Origin: Clostridiisalibacter paucivorans DSM 22131 | Lineage (GTDB): Bacteria > Bacillota > Clostridia > Tissierellales > Clostridiisalibacteraceae | Length of the DNA: 64,000 nt | Reading direction: 5' to 3' | NCBI RefSeq assembly: GCF_000620125.1 | Contig: NZ_JHVL01000004.1 | Span: forward strand, 62,001 to 126,000 | In this document: piece by piece, positions 11,116 through 58,209 of the stretch | Position numbering within the stretch: the stretch's first letter is position 1 | Layout: each line of letters begins with the position of its first letter | Made by a program: the position numbers and the translations under genes | Notes under the pieces: generated by a model | The model's input: only the letters and a program-made list of their open reading frames with translations | Told to the model about the DNA's origin: nothing | Databases searched by the model: none

Positions 11116-11180
11116 AATGTACCATTAAAATGGCCATAACAATCCCATATTAAATTAGCCTTCCCTCCGAAGAATCTTAT

Positions 11181-11354
11181 CTCTTTTTTAGGCAGGTCTC
11201 CTGACTTAAGCATCATCCTACACTTTAACCTTCCCATGATAATACATAGTGGTATATAAAAGTTTCGTCAGCAATTACAGTAGCGGGGGCTGTAGAGGTT
11301 TTTCACCTCTTTCCCTTTTAATTTTTACTATTGTAAATCAAAACCTAAAAAAGC
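11181..11354 (-). promoter_or_regulatory. Cobalamin riboswitch controlling nrdD-nrdG
   Basis: Minus-strand leader with the hallmarks of a cobalamin aptamer: GCCCCCGCTACTGT core, GGGAAGG, and the B12 box AGTCAGGAGACCTGCC at 11191-11206. The P1 stem closes with CTTTTTTAGG at one end (near 11343-11354) and CCTAAAAAAG at the other (11182-11193). A promoter lies upstream and a terminator downstream. Confidence 0.95.
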
Positions 11355-11372
11355 TTGTTATCTTTTTCTATA

Positions 11373-30147: not shown

Positions 30148-30177
30148 CACACTAAAGAAAGAAGCTTCTTTAATGTG
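30148..30177 (-). promoter_or_regulatory. Hairpin next to the THF riboswitch, possible expression platform
   Basis: Minus strand: CACATTAAAG pairs with CTTTAGTGTG across a 10-base loop, directly after the aptamer P1. No strong T run follows, so translation control or a processed form is possible. Confidence 0.55.
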
Positions 30178-30276
30178 TCAGCGGATGCGATAAGGCATCG
30201 CGAAAAACAAAGTTTTTCTTCGTTTAAGGGCAACATCCCATCCCTTAACACTTCACGCACCTTATCTACTCTGTCG
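30178..30276 (-). promoter_or_regulatory. Tetrahydrofolate riboswitch upstream of folT
   Basis: Minus-strand leader matching the THF aptamer layout: AGAGTAGAT at the 5' side, GCGTGAAGTG, the GGGATG loop segment, ACGAA, and the 3' GCATCCGCT. P1 is closed by CAG/CTG. It lies downstream of a good promoter and upstream of a folate-type ECF S component, as known for this riboswitch class. Confidence 0.92.
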
Positions 30277-53184: not shown

Positions 53185-54354
53185 TTATGGTTTTATTTTC
53201 ATTATTTTCATATTATTCAATGCATCATCTACTAATGATTCTATATCTAAACTTTTTTCTGAATCCTCTATATCTTCTAATTTAGGTCTCGTTACAGGGT
53301 GTTTAGGTAAAAATACTGTGCAACAATCCTCATAGGGTAATATTGAAGTTTCATATGTTTCTATATCATGGGATATATCCATTATTTGGGTTTTATCCAT
53401 TCCAATTAATGGCCGGAAAATAGGCATATGAACTATTGAATTAGTAACATTTAAAGATTTTATAGTCTGACTAGCCACCTGCCCGAGACTTTCTCCTGTC
53501 ACTAATGCATCTATGCCTTCCCTTTCTGCTACCCTTTCTGCTATTCTCATCATAAATCTTCTTGAAATAAGAGTCATTTCATCTTCAGGACAGTTTTTAT
53601 TTATTTCCTTTTGTATATTTAGCAAATTAATAGAATATAAATTAAACTCTCCACAATATCTTGCTATTATACTTCCTAAAGCCTTTACCTTTTCTTCTGC
53701 TCTTTCACTGGTAAAGGGATAACTATGATAGTGAATAGCATCTATCTTTACTCCCCTTTTTGCTATCATAAAACCTGCTACTGGACTATCAATGCCTCCT
53801 GAAAGTAAAAGAAGACCTCTACCATTGGTTCCTATAGGTAATCCCCCATAGGCCTTTATCTTTTCGGTATATAAATATACTTTATCTCTTATATCTATAT
53901 ACAAATACATATCTGGATTATGGACATCCACTTTTAAATCATCCACATTTTTTAGTATCTCTCCTCCTAATAACTTAGCTACATCCATAGATTTAATAGG
54001 AAATTTTTTATCTGCTCTTTTTACCTTAACTTTAAATGTTTTGAATCCCTTTTCTTTTATAATATCCTTTACTACCTTCACTGAAGCATTTTTTATTATA
54101 TCTATATCTTTATCTACTCTATATGCAGGATTTATGTGAACTATTCCAAATACTTTTACCAGTCTTTTTATTACATTGTCCATATTAATTTCATCTACTT
54201 CTACATAGGCTTTTCCCAGTTCTCTATATACCCTTGCCTTTCCTAAATCCTTTATAGAATTTTTTATATGTTTTATTAATTCTTTTTCGAAATAACCTCT
54301 ATTACCTCCCTTAAGCACTATTTCTCCAAAGCTAATACTTATTACTCTATCCAT
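53185..54354 (-). CDS. thiI: tRNA sulfurtransferase (4-thiouridine synthase)
   Basis: Makes 4-thiouridine at position 8 of tRNA and can supply sulfur for thiamine. 389 residues: N-terminal ferredoxin-like and THUMP region (about 60-165) and a PP-loop AANH domain with LLLSGGIDSPVAGFM (about 183-197). The C-terminal rhodanese domain of the Escherichia coli enzyme is missing, as usual in Firmicutes, where a NifS-type desulfurase donates sulfur. ATG at 54354 has AAGGAG 8 bases upstream. The nifS gene lies 13 bases upstream and is co-transcribed. Confidence 0.95.
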   Translation of the reverse strand: MDRVISISFGEIVLKGGNRGYFEKELIKHIKNSIKDLGKARVYRELGKAYVEVDEINMDNVIKRLVKVFGIVHINPAYRVDKDIDIIKNASVKVVKDIIKEKGFKTFKVKVKRADKKFPIKSMDVAKLLGGEILKNVDDLKVDVHNPDMYLYIDIRDKVYLYTEKIKAYGGLPIGTNGRGLLLLSGGIDSPVAGFMIAKRGVKIDAIHYHSYPFTSERAEEKVKALGSIIARYCGEFNLYSINLLNIQKEINKNCPEDEMTLISRRFMMRIAERVAEREGIDALVTGESLGQVASQTIKSLNVTNSIVHMPIFRPLIGMDKTQIMDISHDIETYETSILPYEDCCTVFLPKHPVTRPKLEDIEDSEKSLDIESLVDDALNNMKIMKIKP

Positions 54355-54367
54355 CAAATTCTCTCCT

Positions 54368-55525
54368 TTATCTCATAGTTATTTGTCTTATGTCTTCTAC
54401 TGATTCTTTTAATTTATCTATAGTATAATCTATATCCTTCTCAGTATTAAATTGACTAAAACTAAATCTTATAGCACCTTCTATTTTTTTCATATCTAGT
54501 CCCATTGCCCTAAGTACATGACTCCCTCTCTTACCCTTTGATGAACACGCTGAACCAGTAGATACATAAATGCCCTGTTGCTCCAGATAGTGTAAAAGTA
54601 CTTCTCCCCTTATTCCATTAAAGGATATATTTACTATATGTGGAGCACTATTATCATCAATAAATCCATTTATATTTATGTTTTTTATTTCAGATAATGC
54701 CTTTTCAATAAAATACTTCTTTATTTTTTTCATTTTCATGATATGAGTATCAAAACTATCTTTTATAATATCTACAGCCTTACCTAACCCTACTATCCCT
54801 GGAGTATTTTCCGTACCCGATCTTATTCCCCATTCTTGATTTCCTCCATAAATCATAGGATTTAAATTTAGCCCTTTTTTTATATAAAGTCCTCCTATTC
54901 CCTTTGGACCATGAATCTTATGTCCACTAAAAGAAAGAGTATCTATATTTAAAGTTTTTGGATATAATTCTATCTTTCCAAATCCTTGAACAGCATCAAC
55001 ATGAAATTTTATGCTTTCCTTTTTTCTCTTTATTATATCACTAATATATTTTAATGGTTGTATAGTCCCTACTTCGTTATTTACAGCCATTACAGATATC
55101 AATATTGTTTCATCAGTTATGCTATTTTCCAACTGTCTCAAATCTATAAGACCATTTTTATCCACTTTTAAATATGTTACTTTATATCCATTAGATTCAT
55201 ACTTTTTAAAAACATTTAACACAGATGGATGTTCTATATGGGAAGTTATTATATGTTTTCCCTGTTTAGAAAATCTATTTATTATACCTTGAATAGCTAT
55301 ATTATTGCTCTCTGTCCCCCCAGATGTAAAATATATCTCATCACTTTTTACTTTCAAAAATTCTGATATTATTTTTCTAGACTCTTTAATCTTCTTTTCT
55401 GCATTCAATCCCATCCTGTGAAGAGATGATGGATTCCCAAAACATTTAAATTGCATATAATTCATAGCATCAATTACTTCTTCTCTAGGTTTAGTAGTAG
55501 CACTATTATCTAAATAAACTTCCAT
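54368..55525 (-). CDS. nifS: Cysteine desulfurase (NifS/IscS type)
   Basis: PLP enzyme that takes sulfur from cysteine. 385 residues: YLDNSATTKP start, HVDAVQGFGK, PLP lysine in SFSGHKIHGPKGIGG (about K203) and the active Cys in GSACSSKGKRGSHVL (about C327). ATG at 55525 has AGAGGTG 6 bases upstream; the GTG at 55534 is inside it. Its position before thiI suggests it serves tRNA thiolation. Confidence 0.95.
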   Translation of the reverse strand: MEVYLDNSATTKPREEVIDAMNYMQFKCFGNPSSLHRMGLNAEKKIKESRKIISEFLKVKSDEIYFTSGGTESNNIAIQGIINRFSKQGKHIITSHIEHPSVLNVFKKYESNGYKVTYLKVDKNGLIDLRQLENSITDETILISVMAVNNEVGTIQPLKYISDIIKRKKESIKFHVDAVQGFGKIELYPKTLNIDTLSFSGHKIHGPKGIGGLYIKKGLNLNPMIYGGNQEWGIRSGTENTPGIVGLGKAVDIIKDSFDTHIMKMKKIKKYFIEKALSEIKNININGFIDDNSAPHIVNISFNGIRGEVLLHYLEQQGIYVSTGSACSSKGKRGSHVLRAMGLDMKKIEGAIRFSFSQFNTEKDIDYTIDKLKESVEDIRQITMR

Positions 55526-55547
55526 TTTTTTCACCTCTATTTCTAGA

Positions 55548-56159
55548 CTAAAAGCCTAATTTTTCATTTACCAATAAAATTTTTATTTCTATAGTTTTAG
55601 GACATTTCTCTACTATTACTGTTACATTGCACATCCTATCTTTCGATTGGCAATCATTACAAACTCCAGTATACCTACAAGGAGTATTCAAATCCAGTCT
55701 CTCTGCATTCTTTGGACATGCCTCCTCTTTTATCCTCTTTATAGCATCCTCTAGATTTGAAGTTATTTTATTCATACCTGCAATTATATATACTTTATTA
55801 TGACCATAAAACATAGATGACACCCTATTTCCAACTCCATCTATATTTACAAGTTTCCCATCCTCTGTTATAGCATTAGTACTTGTAATATATATTGTTG
55901 CGTTAGAAGCATTAATCCTTTCAGCATTTCTCTTATCTGGTGCAACCTTCCAATGCCAATATACTTCATTATTTCTATTTTTAAGCTCATCATAAATACC
56001 CGATTGTTCAATAGTCATAGAACCACCAAACCCTATTGAATCTTCAGAAGATATCTCTGATAATACTTTTTTCTTTACATCATCTAGACTTTCAAAAAAA
56101 CTTACATTAAAACCATTTTTATTTAATCTATCCATCGTATCTTTTATTGTATCACTCAT
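55548..56159 (-). CDS. LUD domain (lactate-utilization type) protein
   Basis: 203 residues. The LUD domain has GFGGSMTIEQSGIYDELKNRN and TGVCNDCQSKDRMCN, a Cys group near the C-terminus that may bind a cluster. Single LUD proteins without LutA/LutB are common and uncharacterised. It lies 22 bases before nifS on the same strand; this LUD-nifS-thiI order is recurrent in Clostridia by my recollection, but the functional link is unknown. Confidence 0.85.
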   Translation of the reverse strand: MSDTIKDTMDRLNKNGFNVSFFESLDDVKKKVLSEISSEDSIGFGGSMTIEQSGIYDELKNRNNEVYWHWKVAPDKRNAERINASNATIYITSTNAITEDGKLVNIDGVGNRVSSMFYGHNKVYIIAGMNKITSNLEDAIKRIKEEACPKNAERLDLNTPCRYTGVCNDCQSKDRMCNVTVIVEKCPKTIEIKILLVNEKLGF

Positions 56160-56290: not shown

Positions 56291-56319
56291 TTGATTGTTC
56301 TGTCGTTTTTTGTTATAAT
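56291..56319 (+). promoter_or_regulatory. Predicted sigma-A promoter of the candidate small RNA
   Basis: Plus strand: -35 TTGATT (56291-56296), exact 17-base spacer, perfect -10 TATAAT (56314-56319). No coding gene follows on the plus strand. Confidence 0.75.
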
Positions 56320-56325
56320 CTGTAA

Positions 56326-56450
56326 TGGTTATCCCCCTGGTAACCTCAAAAATCTCTATTCCCAATACCCCTTTTGAACGGTTTTATAATCGTGTATATC
56401 TAATATTAGATGTACAAAACAAAAAAAGGCCACCGAGGCCTTTTTTTGTT
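56326..56450 (+). ncRNA. Candidate trans-acting small RNA with C-rich loops
   Basis: No reading frame starts after the promoter. From about 56326 the transcript would fold as: a hairpin GGTTA / TAACC whose loop is TCCCCCTGG; an unpaired part with ATTCCC and ATACCCC; a hairpin ACGGTT / AATCGT; a hairpin with TATCTAA / TTAGATG; and the strong terminator at 56411-56457. C-rich unpaired stretches can pair with AGGAGG-type ribosome sites, as in Firmicutes small RNAs such as RsaE/RoxS. It matches no family I know. Confidence 0.6.
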
Positions 56451-56457
56451 TTGTACA
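56411..56457. terminator. Strong bidirectional terminator
   Basis: Perfect 21-bp inverted repeat with loop ACCGA; the inner stem is AAAAAAAGGCC / GGCCTTTTTTT, so both strands end in U runs. It ends the candidate small RNA (+) and the 5'-nucleotidase gene (-). Confidence 0.92.
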
Positions 56458-56460
56458 AAT

Positions 56461-58209
56461 TTAATTTTGTGGAACTAATAGTTTTTGACCTATAAAAATC
56501 AAATGAGGATTTTTGAGTTCATTTATCTCAGCCAATCTCTCCCAAGTGATACCAAATTTTTCTGCTATTTTCCAAAGCACATCGTCTTTTTTTACATTAT
56601 AAGTATCCATTTCAACTGACTGTTCCTCTTTTTCTTCTTTAATCTCTTCTACCTTCTCTACTTCAATTTTATCTGCCTTTGCCTGTTGAGTAACTATTAT
56701 TCTAGAATCCTCTGATATATTCTCTGTACCAAATTCAGCAATATAATCCACTAAAATCTCATCCATCGCTTTATAAATCTTCAACTCAGGATACTTTTTA
56801 AACATCTCATAGCCATCTCCACCAGCTGCCATAAAATCATTAGTAGCTACTACATACATTTTATTATTGTCTAATTCTCTGCCATTAACCTTTATATTTA
56901 AAACCTTTTGACCTTCTGGTTTGTCTGGGTTGAATTCATATGTTAACCCAGATACCTGTGGAAATCCTCCATTCGTTTCTGGATATGCCTTTACTCCATA
57001 TTCTATAGCATTTTTTATATCTTCTCCCTTTATTTCTTTTGTTATTACATAATTTCCAAAGGGTAATACTGTCAAAACATCGCTTTTAGTTATATCTCCA
57101 GCCTTTATGCTGGCCCTTATACCTCCACCATTAGTTATTGCAATATCTGCATTTGTATGATATTTCATAGAATCTGTTATGAGATTAGCTAAATTACTTT
57201 CACCTCTTCTCACAACTTCTCTTTCTCCAACTAAAATAGAGGGTGTATTGCCTACTACCTGTGACGTTATTATAGAATTTTCATCTTTGATTTCTTTAAT
57301 TAAATTCAAAATTTCTTCATCTTTTTCTATATTAGATGCATCTTCCTTTGTGAATAAAGATGCATCCATAGTTATGTCTCCATCTTTATATGTCATTTTT
57401 ACTATGCCTAGCGCTTTATCATATTCATATGCTGAAACTATCAACGTACCATCAACTATCATTCCCTGTGGCAAATTAGTATGGGAATGTCCATCTATTA
57501 TTAAATCTATCCCATTAACATTCTTAGCTAAATAATCACTTCTCCATCCTTCTTTAGTATCTTCTCCCATCCCTAAATGGGATAACACTATTATTACATC
57601 TGACTTATCTTCTAATTCCTTTATTATATCTCTTGATGCCTCAACTGGATCTAAAAATTCAAGTCCTTCTGTATTTCTAGGATGGGATTTTATTTTTGTT
57701 TCTGGAGTAGCTAGGCCAAATATGCCTATTTTTACTCCATCTATTTCTTTAATAATATATTTTTTAGTAAAGTTATTTTTACTATCTTCTTCAACTACAT
57801 TAGAAGCCAAAATATCAAAATTAGAAATATCCATCAACTCTTTGGCTCTATCTTTTCCATAATTAAAATCATGATTCCCAAGAACCATACCATCATATCC
57901 GATTTTATTAAATACCTTCATTACGGATTCTCCCTTGGCTATGGTTGCCAAAGGATTCCCATGAAATGCATCACCAGCATCTAGCAATAATATATTATTA
58001 TTCTCTGTCTCTAATTGTTTCAGCTTAGTTGCAATTTTAGCGAACCCCATACCATCATAATTACCTTCTTCCAATCTAGCATGAGTATCATTAGTATGTA
58101 CTATTGTTATATTTACTGCCTCTTCTGAAGCCAAGGATTGATTCAATGGCATAACCATTGTAAATACAAGAGCTAAAATCAATATGATACTAATTCTTTT
58201 CTTAAACAC
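56461..58209 (-). CDS. Exported 5'-nucleotidase with C-terminal LysM
   Basis: 582 residues. A signal peptide (about 1-27, MVMPLNQSLASE cleavage region) is followed by a calcineurin-like phosphoesterase domain (IVHTNDTHARL, DAGDAFHGN, GNHDFNYG, SHLGMGED, DGHSHT), the 5'-nucleotidase C-terminal domain (NGGGIRASIKAGDIT), a Glu/Lys linker and a LysM domain at the end (WKIAEKFGITWERLAEINE). LysM suggests anchoring to peptidoglycan. The enzyme likely hydrolyses external nucleotides or cyclic nucleotides. GTG start. Confidence 0.93.
   Translation of the reverse strand: MFKKRISIILILALVFTMVMPLNQSLASEEAVNITIVHTNDTHARLEEGNYDGMGFAKIATKLKQLETENNNILLLDAGDAFHGNPLATIAKGESVMKVFNKIGYDGMVLGNHDFNYGKDRAKELMDISNFDILASNVVEEDSKNNFTKKYIIKEIDGVKIGIFGLATPETKIKSHPRNTEGLEFLDPVEASRDIIKELEDKSDVIIVLSHLGMGEDTKEGWRSDYLAKNVNGIDLIIDGHSHTNLPQGMIVDGTLIVSAYEYDKALGIVKMTYKDGDITMDASLFTKEDASNIEKDEEILNLIKEIKDENSIITSQVVGNTPSILVGEREVVRRGESNLANLITDSMKYHTNADIAITNGGGIRASIKAGDITKSDVLTVLPFGNYVITKEIKGEDIKNAIEYGVKAYPETNGGFPQVSGLTYEFNPDKPEGQKVLNIKVNGRELDNNKMYVVATNDFMAAGGDGYEMFKKYPELKIYKAMDEILVDYIAEFGTENISEDSRIIVTQQAKADKIEVEKVEEIKEEKEEQSVEMDTYNVKKDDVLWKIAEKFGITWERLAEINELKNPHLIFIGQKLLVPQN

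Follow-up and report, generated by a model that had tools for sequence, protein, structure and literature searches.

What, if anything, is made from a stretch of clostridial DNA in which a promoter and a terminator enclose no recognizable gene? The stretch lies in a 64,000-nt window of Clostridiisalibacter paucivorans DSM 22131 (contig NZ_JHVL01000004.1, positions 62,001–126,000 of the forward strand; coordinates below are those of the window), where an initial annotation had proposed a C-rich small RNA (sRNA). The promoter that it described, TTGATT and TATAAT separated by 17 bases, is present on the + strand at 56291–56319, with the −35 element at 56291–56296 and the −10 element, recovered by both promoter scan and alignment, at 56314–56319, immediately preceded by TG (TTGTTATAAT). 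Promoter-like sites are no more frequent in the region than in shuffled sequence (31 found versus 32 expected), i.e., a match alone is at chance level, so that the case for this promoter rests on its conservation: the spacing between −35 and −10 is 17 in 83 of 83 distinct homologues, most of which read TTGC.. in the −35 element. The intrinsic terminator, a perfect 21-bp palindrome with a 5-base loop, is likewise found as described, at 56411–56457 (+). The next gene 3′ of the locus is convergent, ends at 56461, and may share this palindrome. The palindrome carries its own T-run, which puts the 3′ end of the RNA probably near 56444–56450; with the 5′ end taken from the −10 element and the 3′ end from the terminator U-run, conservation and fold point to an RNA of about 120–130 nt at 56325–56450 (+).

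The predicted fold of this RNA is unusually stable (z = −7.15, with none of 200 shuffles as stable), much of which is supplied by the terminator. Near the 5′ end, it displays the anticipated hairpin with a C-rich loop (hairpin 1, GGUUAUC-CCCCU-GGUAACC, 56327–56345, +), followed on the 3′ side by an unpaired CCC and then an unpaired CCCC. A conserved C-rich single-stranded region, UCUCUAUUCCCAAUACCCCUUUUGAACGGUU, spans 56353–56383 (+) and includes CAAUACCC at 56363–56370.

We evaluated the spread of this element across genomes. Searches with promoter and core returned homologues in many other families, matching at 80–93% identity across some 90 bases. With a covariance model restricted to the RNA, the sRNA was detected in 128 of 249 Tissierellales genomes at E ≤ 0.1 (about 100 of these at <1e-9), and, at E ≤ 0.001, in 236 of 345 genomes of a second clostridial order, that of Alkaliphilus transvaalensis, which also holds Tepidibacter and probably Clostridioides; the carriers known by name include Tissierella, Anaerosalibacter, Schnuerera, Soehngenia, Gudongella, Alkaliphilus, Geosporobacter, Thermotalea, Tepidibacter, and Acetoanaerobium. 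In one small-genome family (f4), the model scored the sRNA as absent or merely marginal in nearly all genomes. One genus with genomes of 3.9–4.8 Mb (g292), which from its gene neighborhood is probably Clostridioides, carries one copy per genome, amid genes for cysteine desulfurase, thiI, crcB, a type IV pilin, and an amino-acid ABC transporter. Upstream of the sRNA, the succession of thiI (53185–54357 in the window), a cysteine desulfurase gene (54368–55534), and a LUD-domain protein gene (55548–56159, −, divergent from the sRNA) is widely shared.

Aligned copies share the TTGC of the −35 element, the spacer TGTCG, TTGYTATAAT, the hairpin GGUUAUCCCCCUGGUAACC, and the AUCUCUAUUCCCAAUACCCCUUUUGAACGGUU stretch, and differ in sequence beyond these. 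The second single-stranded stretch, UUCCCAAUACCCC, hardly varies, CAAUACCC shows no variation across 40 diverse sequences, and the near-invariant motif reads CCAAUACCC. Promoter and loops are thus both conserved, the opposite of the pattern that had been named as evidence against an sRNA (surrounding genes conserved, promoter and loops not), and the C-rich sRNA reading is supported.

Several further lines of evidence indicate that the element is a gene in its own right. Hairpin 1 covaries, with 6 of 10 pairs changed on both sides and a covariation score of 0.205, compared to 0.149 when shuffled (0/500) and ≤0.085 with slid partners. Of 82 copies, 76 have a terminator no more than 90 nt past the core, versus 0 of 82 shuffled tails; these terminators are built from 66 distinct stems and thus differ in sequence between copies. 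Two features by which C-rich, Shine-Dalgarno-pairing sRNAs can be recognized, an independent promoter with an intrinsic terminator and a conserved, accessible C-rich motif in a loop or unpaired, were both found here. The locus could instead be the 5′ leader or attenuator (riboswitch-like) of a downstream gene, since in most loci a co-oriented asparaginase gene begins about 110–440 nt past the core, with the terminator in between. However, the window, Clostridioides-like genomes, and several others have a convergent gene next, the genes downstream change between genomes, inspection by eye revealed no conserved anti-terminator pairing, and the tandem copies found about 200 nt apart in some genomes are complete units, each with promoter, TGTCG box, and terminator. 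With a downstream gene that is variable or convergent and tandem copies that are complete, we consider a leader very unlikely.

A small protein gene is a reading to which we give next to no credence: an ATG open reading frame of 56 codons does overlap the locus (56325–56495) and starts near the transcription start, but in homologues the same frame stops after 6–50 codons, no ribosome site lies 5′ of it, and core lengths differ by 1–2 nt among homologues, which argues against coding. The frame is not conserved. An RNA from the opposite strand was also considered and ruled out, the promoter and U-runs lying on the + strand in aligned homologues.

The claim that the element belongs to no known RNA family was borne out by a scan of the window with Rfam 15, in which the sRNA fell below the gathering threshold of every family. 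In a permissive scan, the best match scored 26.1 bits, the cut-off being 48, and low-scoring matches were mostly on the A/T-rich terminator; a literature search with CCCAATACCCC found nothing related to the sRNA. Elsewhere in the window, cobalamin and THF riboswitches were matched well above thresholds, at 11174–11363 (−) and 30177–30275 (−). Overall, the element very probably represents a genuine C-rich sRNA without an Rfam family, and very probably a trans-acting sRNA gene, to judge from its sequence features, rather than a leader or a small protein gene.

Beyond what the initial annotation had noted, the sRNA promoter contains the core of a Spo0A box. The core consensus is TGTCGAA, in which Spo0A contacts G2, C4, and G5 (PMC3485338). 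The window copy, TGTCGTT (56301–56307, +), is located between −35 and −10, and its last two bases deviate from the consensus. Across homologues, TGTCG starts at the identical position in 56 of 56 promoters that have it, while the flanking spacer bases vary; within the box, the three contacted bases never vary in these promoters, and base 7 is mostly A. A 0A box at the promoter, one mark of Spo0A regulon members, is found here as TGTCG at a single position. We also tried TGTCG as the mark of a general promoter class and rejected it: in a scan of 12 genomes, the sRNA accounted for 9 of the 11 matches, and the reversed control pattern gave 4.

Loss of spo0A usually goes with loss of the box. Scoring spo0A by PF08769, we counted 75 promoters with and 18 without the box in genomes that have the gene, as opposed to 4 with and 19 without in genomes that lack it (Fisher 2.5e-8, ignoring shared ancestry). 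Within one genus, G560 has both box and spo0A and G561 neither, and both are missing from G703 (a complete genome) and G015, though their relatives retain them. A box without spo0A was seen in G126, the remaining three such cases being incomplete assemblies; the 18 genomes with spo0A and no TGTCG, three of them one base off, belong mainly to families f19 and f20 and genus g337. In C. difficile, Spo0A represses the sin locus through direct binding (PMC7643835). Here, the box overlaps the region contacted by RNA polymerase, which suggests that Spo0A would bind and repress the sRNA promoter, both the binding and its sign being read from the DNA.

We then asked which ribosome binding sites the RNA could pair with. 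The initial annotation had envisaged AGGAGG; the C-rich loop does fit ribosome sites, but it favors runs of G (AGGGGG, CAGGGGGGUAA) instead. The proposed seed, UUAUCCCCCUG (11 bases in hairpin 1, 56329–56339, +), is complementary to the spo0A ribosome site, which is of the CAGGGGGGUAA type. In the 72 genomes where this site was read, it is a run of five or more G (a G5 site) in 65. In the first set, the proportion was 51 of 57, compared to 74 of 418 (18%) for other open reading frames from the same kind of loci (p 3e-27, likewise ignoring shared ancestry), and G5 sites in four neighboring gene families amounted to 0/43, 0/38, 5/52, and 19/46. The last of these is the divergent LUD-protein gene, which stands above the other neighbors and could be a further target, by the same sequence criterion. 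Complementarity to spo0A reaches beyond the G-run, as indicated by longer pairing and by enrichment of a specific context: among G5 sites, the mean complementary run is 10.2 for spo0A versus 8.0 for others, and CAGGGGG occurs in 25 of 65 versus 3 of 75. The spo0A site is often CAGGGGGGUAAUU, which pairs without interruption with UUAUCCCCCUG, and in G012 there are 15 contiguous pairs.

The spo0A site also varies with the promoter box: genomes with the box have 56 G5 sites and 1 other, versus 7 and 5 in genomes without it (Fisher 4e-4, ignoring shared ancestry). In 5 of these 12 box-less genomes the spo0A site is of the ordinary AGGAGG type, and three of the 7 with a G5 site differ from a box by one base. 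G037 has lost the hairpin and second motif and retains only the 11-base seed, the box, and a matching spo0A site; in G010 and G026, the spo0A site is G5 despite no detectable sRNA. For the window's own genome, where the spo0A G-run falls one base short of that in many relatives, spo0A ranked 5th of 58 by predicted interaction energy. Judged by complementarity and conservation, spo0A would be the best-supported conserved target.

These observations can be placed in one model. A sigma-A promoter would drive an independent sRNA of about 125 nt that acts in trans, with a 5′ hairpin loop and an unpaired C-rich stretch that would pair in the cell with G-rich ribosome binding sites. During growth, the sRNA would be on and Spo0A low, with the seed UUAUCCCCCUG paired to the spo0A site (AGGGGGGUAA type) and spo0A translation blocked; as phosphorylated Spo0A rises, it would occupy the TGTCG box in the promoter spacer and turn the sRNA off. 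Since sRNA and Spo0A would repress each other, the decision to sporulate would be switch-like. We lean toward this mutual repression, of spo0A translation by the sRNA and of the sRNA by Spo0A, as the best model. Probably, mRNAs of other genes with G5 sites are targeted as well, and as genomes without spo0A (asporogenous) keep the RNA with both C-rich motifs, spo0A would not be the sole target.

That same retention in spo0A-less genomes would also suit an RNA that represses many mRNAs with G-rich sites, in the manner of RoxS/RsaE, with spo0A an incidental target and TGTCG serving another regulator or promoter function. The G5 sites among other genes at these loci, the several window genes with lower interaction energies than spo0A, and a second motif more invariant than the seed would all fit such an RNA; however, it would not predict that spo0A sites are strongly enriched in G5 and in complementarity outside the G-run, nor that the box disappears together with spo0A and with the G5 site, and we regard it as rather unlikely. 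Mutual repression of sRNA and Spo0A remains our preferred reading. On its widest form we are evenly divided, namely that it is ancient, spans two orders of Clostridia as a double-negative toggle for sporulation entry in bacteria without the Bacillus phosphorelay, and broke down repeatedly, with box and spo0A site going together, in lineages that lost or rewired sporulation.

The proposed mechanism has a precedent in SpoY (nc020) of C. difficile, which represses spo0A via its ribosome site. The SpoY report (PMC10267692) describes it as bound by Hfq, preferring G-rich ribosome sites, and repressing the translation of spo0A; it is protected at nt 30–41 and lies in the 5′ UTR of CDIF630_00827, with a start site common to both. 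Unlike SpoY, the Clostridioides-like copy of our sRNA lies between cysteine desulfurase and amino-acid ABC transporter genes, adjoins thiI, has no co-oriented gene 3′, and carries its C-rich loop near nt 9–13 of the assumed start. Taking tcdA (CDIF630_00776) to be CD0663 and the sRNA locus to be CD0752/CD0753, numbers we assume to hold, the locus-tag offset would place the two about 40 genes apart. With locus position and anatomy both different, our sRNA is probably a distinct RNA from SpoY. RoxS/RsaE of Bacillales and other C-rich Firmicutes sRNAs combine a C-rich loop with an unpaired C-rich stretch complementary to the Shine-Dalgarno sequence; the present sRNA shares this layout but differs in sequence, architecture, lineage, and promoter signal, and it has no Rfam match at the gathering threshold. 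Sporulation sigma factors direct the synthesis of CsfG in the forespore, whereas the promoter here is of the sigma-A type, and the sRNA has no Rfam match to any CsfG family. The two are alike in being broadly conserved and, by prediction for ours, sporulation-linked, CsfG being mentioned in the same report as a broadly conserved, sporulation-linked sRNA of endospore formers (cited in PMC10267692). That report also describes eight further sRNAs in chimeras with spo0A in C. difficile (PMC10267692), and the present sRNA may be among them.

Most Gram-positive small RNAs are described as not extending beyond a single genus or species (PMC3649979), so that one conserved over hundreds of clostridial genomes, promoter motif included, would be unusual; it would also give annotators a new Rfam family. 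If the sRNA is one of those numbered in the C. difficile chimera study, its existence in one species would already be known, and even then the family, the Spo0A box, and the spread would be new as far as our searches show. Clostridia lack the Bacillus phosphorelay, which is why the start of sporulation in them is poorly understood, and a conserved sRNA-Spo0A toggle, if true, would be a directly testable part of the answer on how these bacteria enter sporulation.

Several variant loci were also seen. Three copies from family f8 (L104, L105, L107) have a decayed second C-rich motif and keep hairpin 1, the box, and a G-run spo0A site; the two C-rich motifs can therefore be lost separately. Loci L216 and L218 (G709) and L217 (G629) are divergent sibling RNAs, two of which retain CCCCCC and AUCCCAAUACCCCUUU with no evident box, and one the box and a GGUUAUUCCCCUGAUAACC hairpin. 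A further candidate, L117 (G039, near 1500), was rejected as a homologue. It appears to be the promoter of a glycine riboswitch, judged by eye, and has the same layout as the sRNA promoter (TTGCAAATTTTGTCGAATTTTATTATAAT); by this resemblance, Spo0A may also control the gene behind it.
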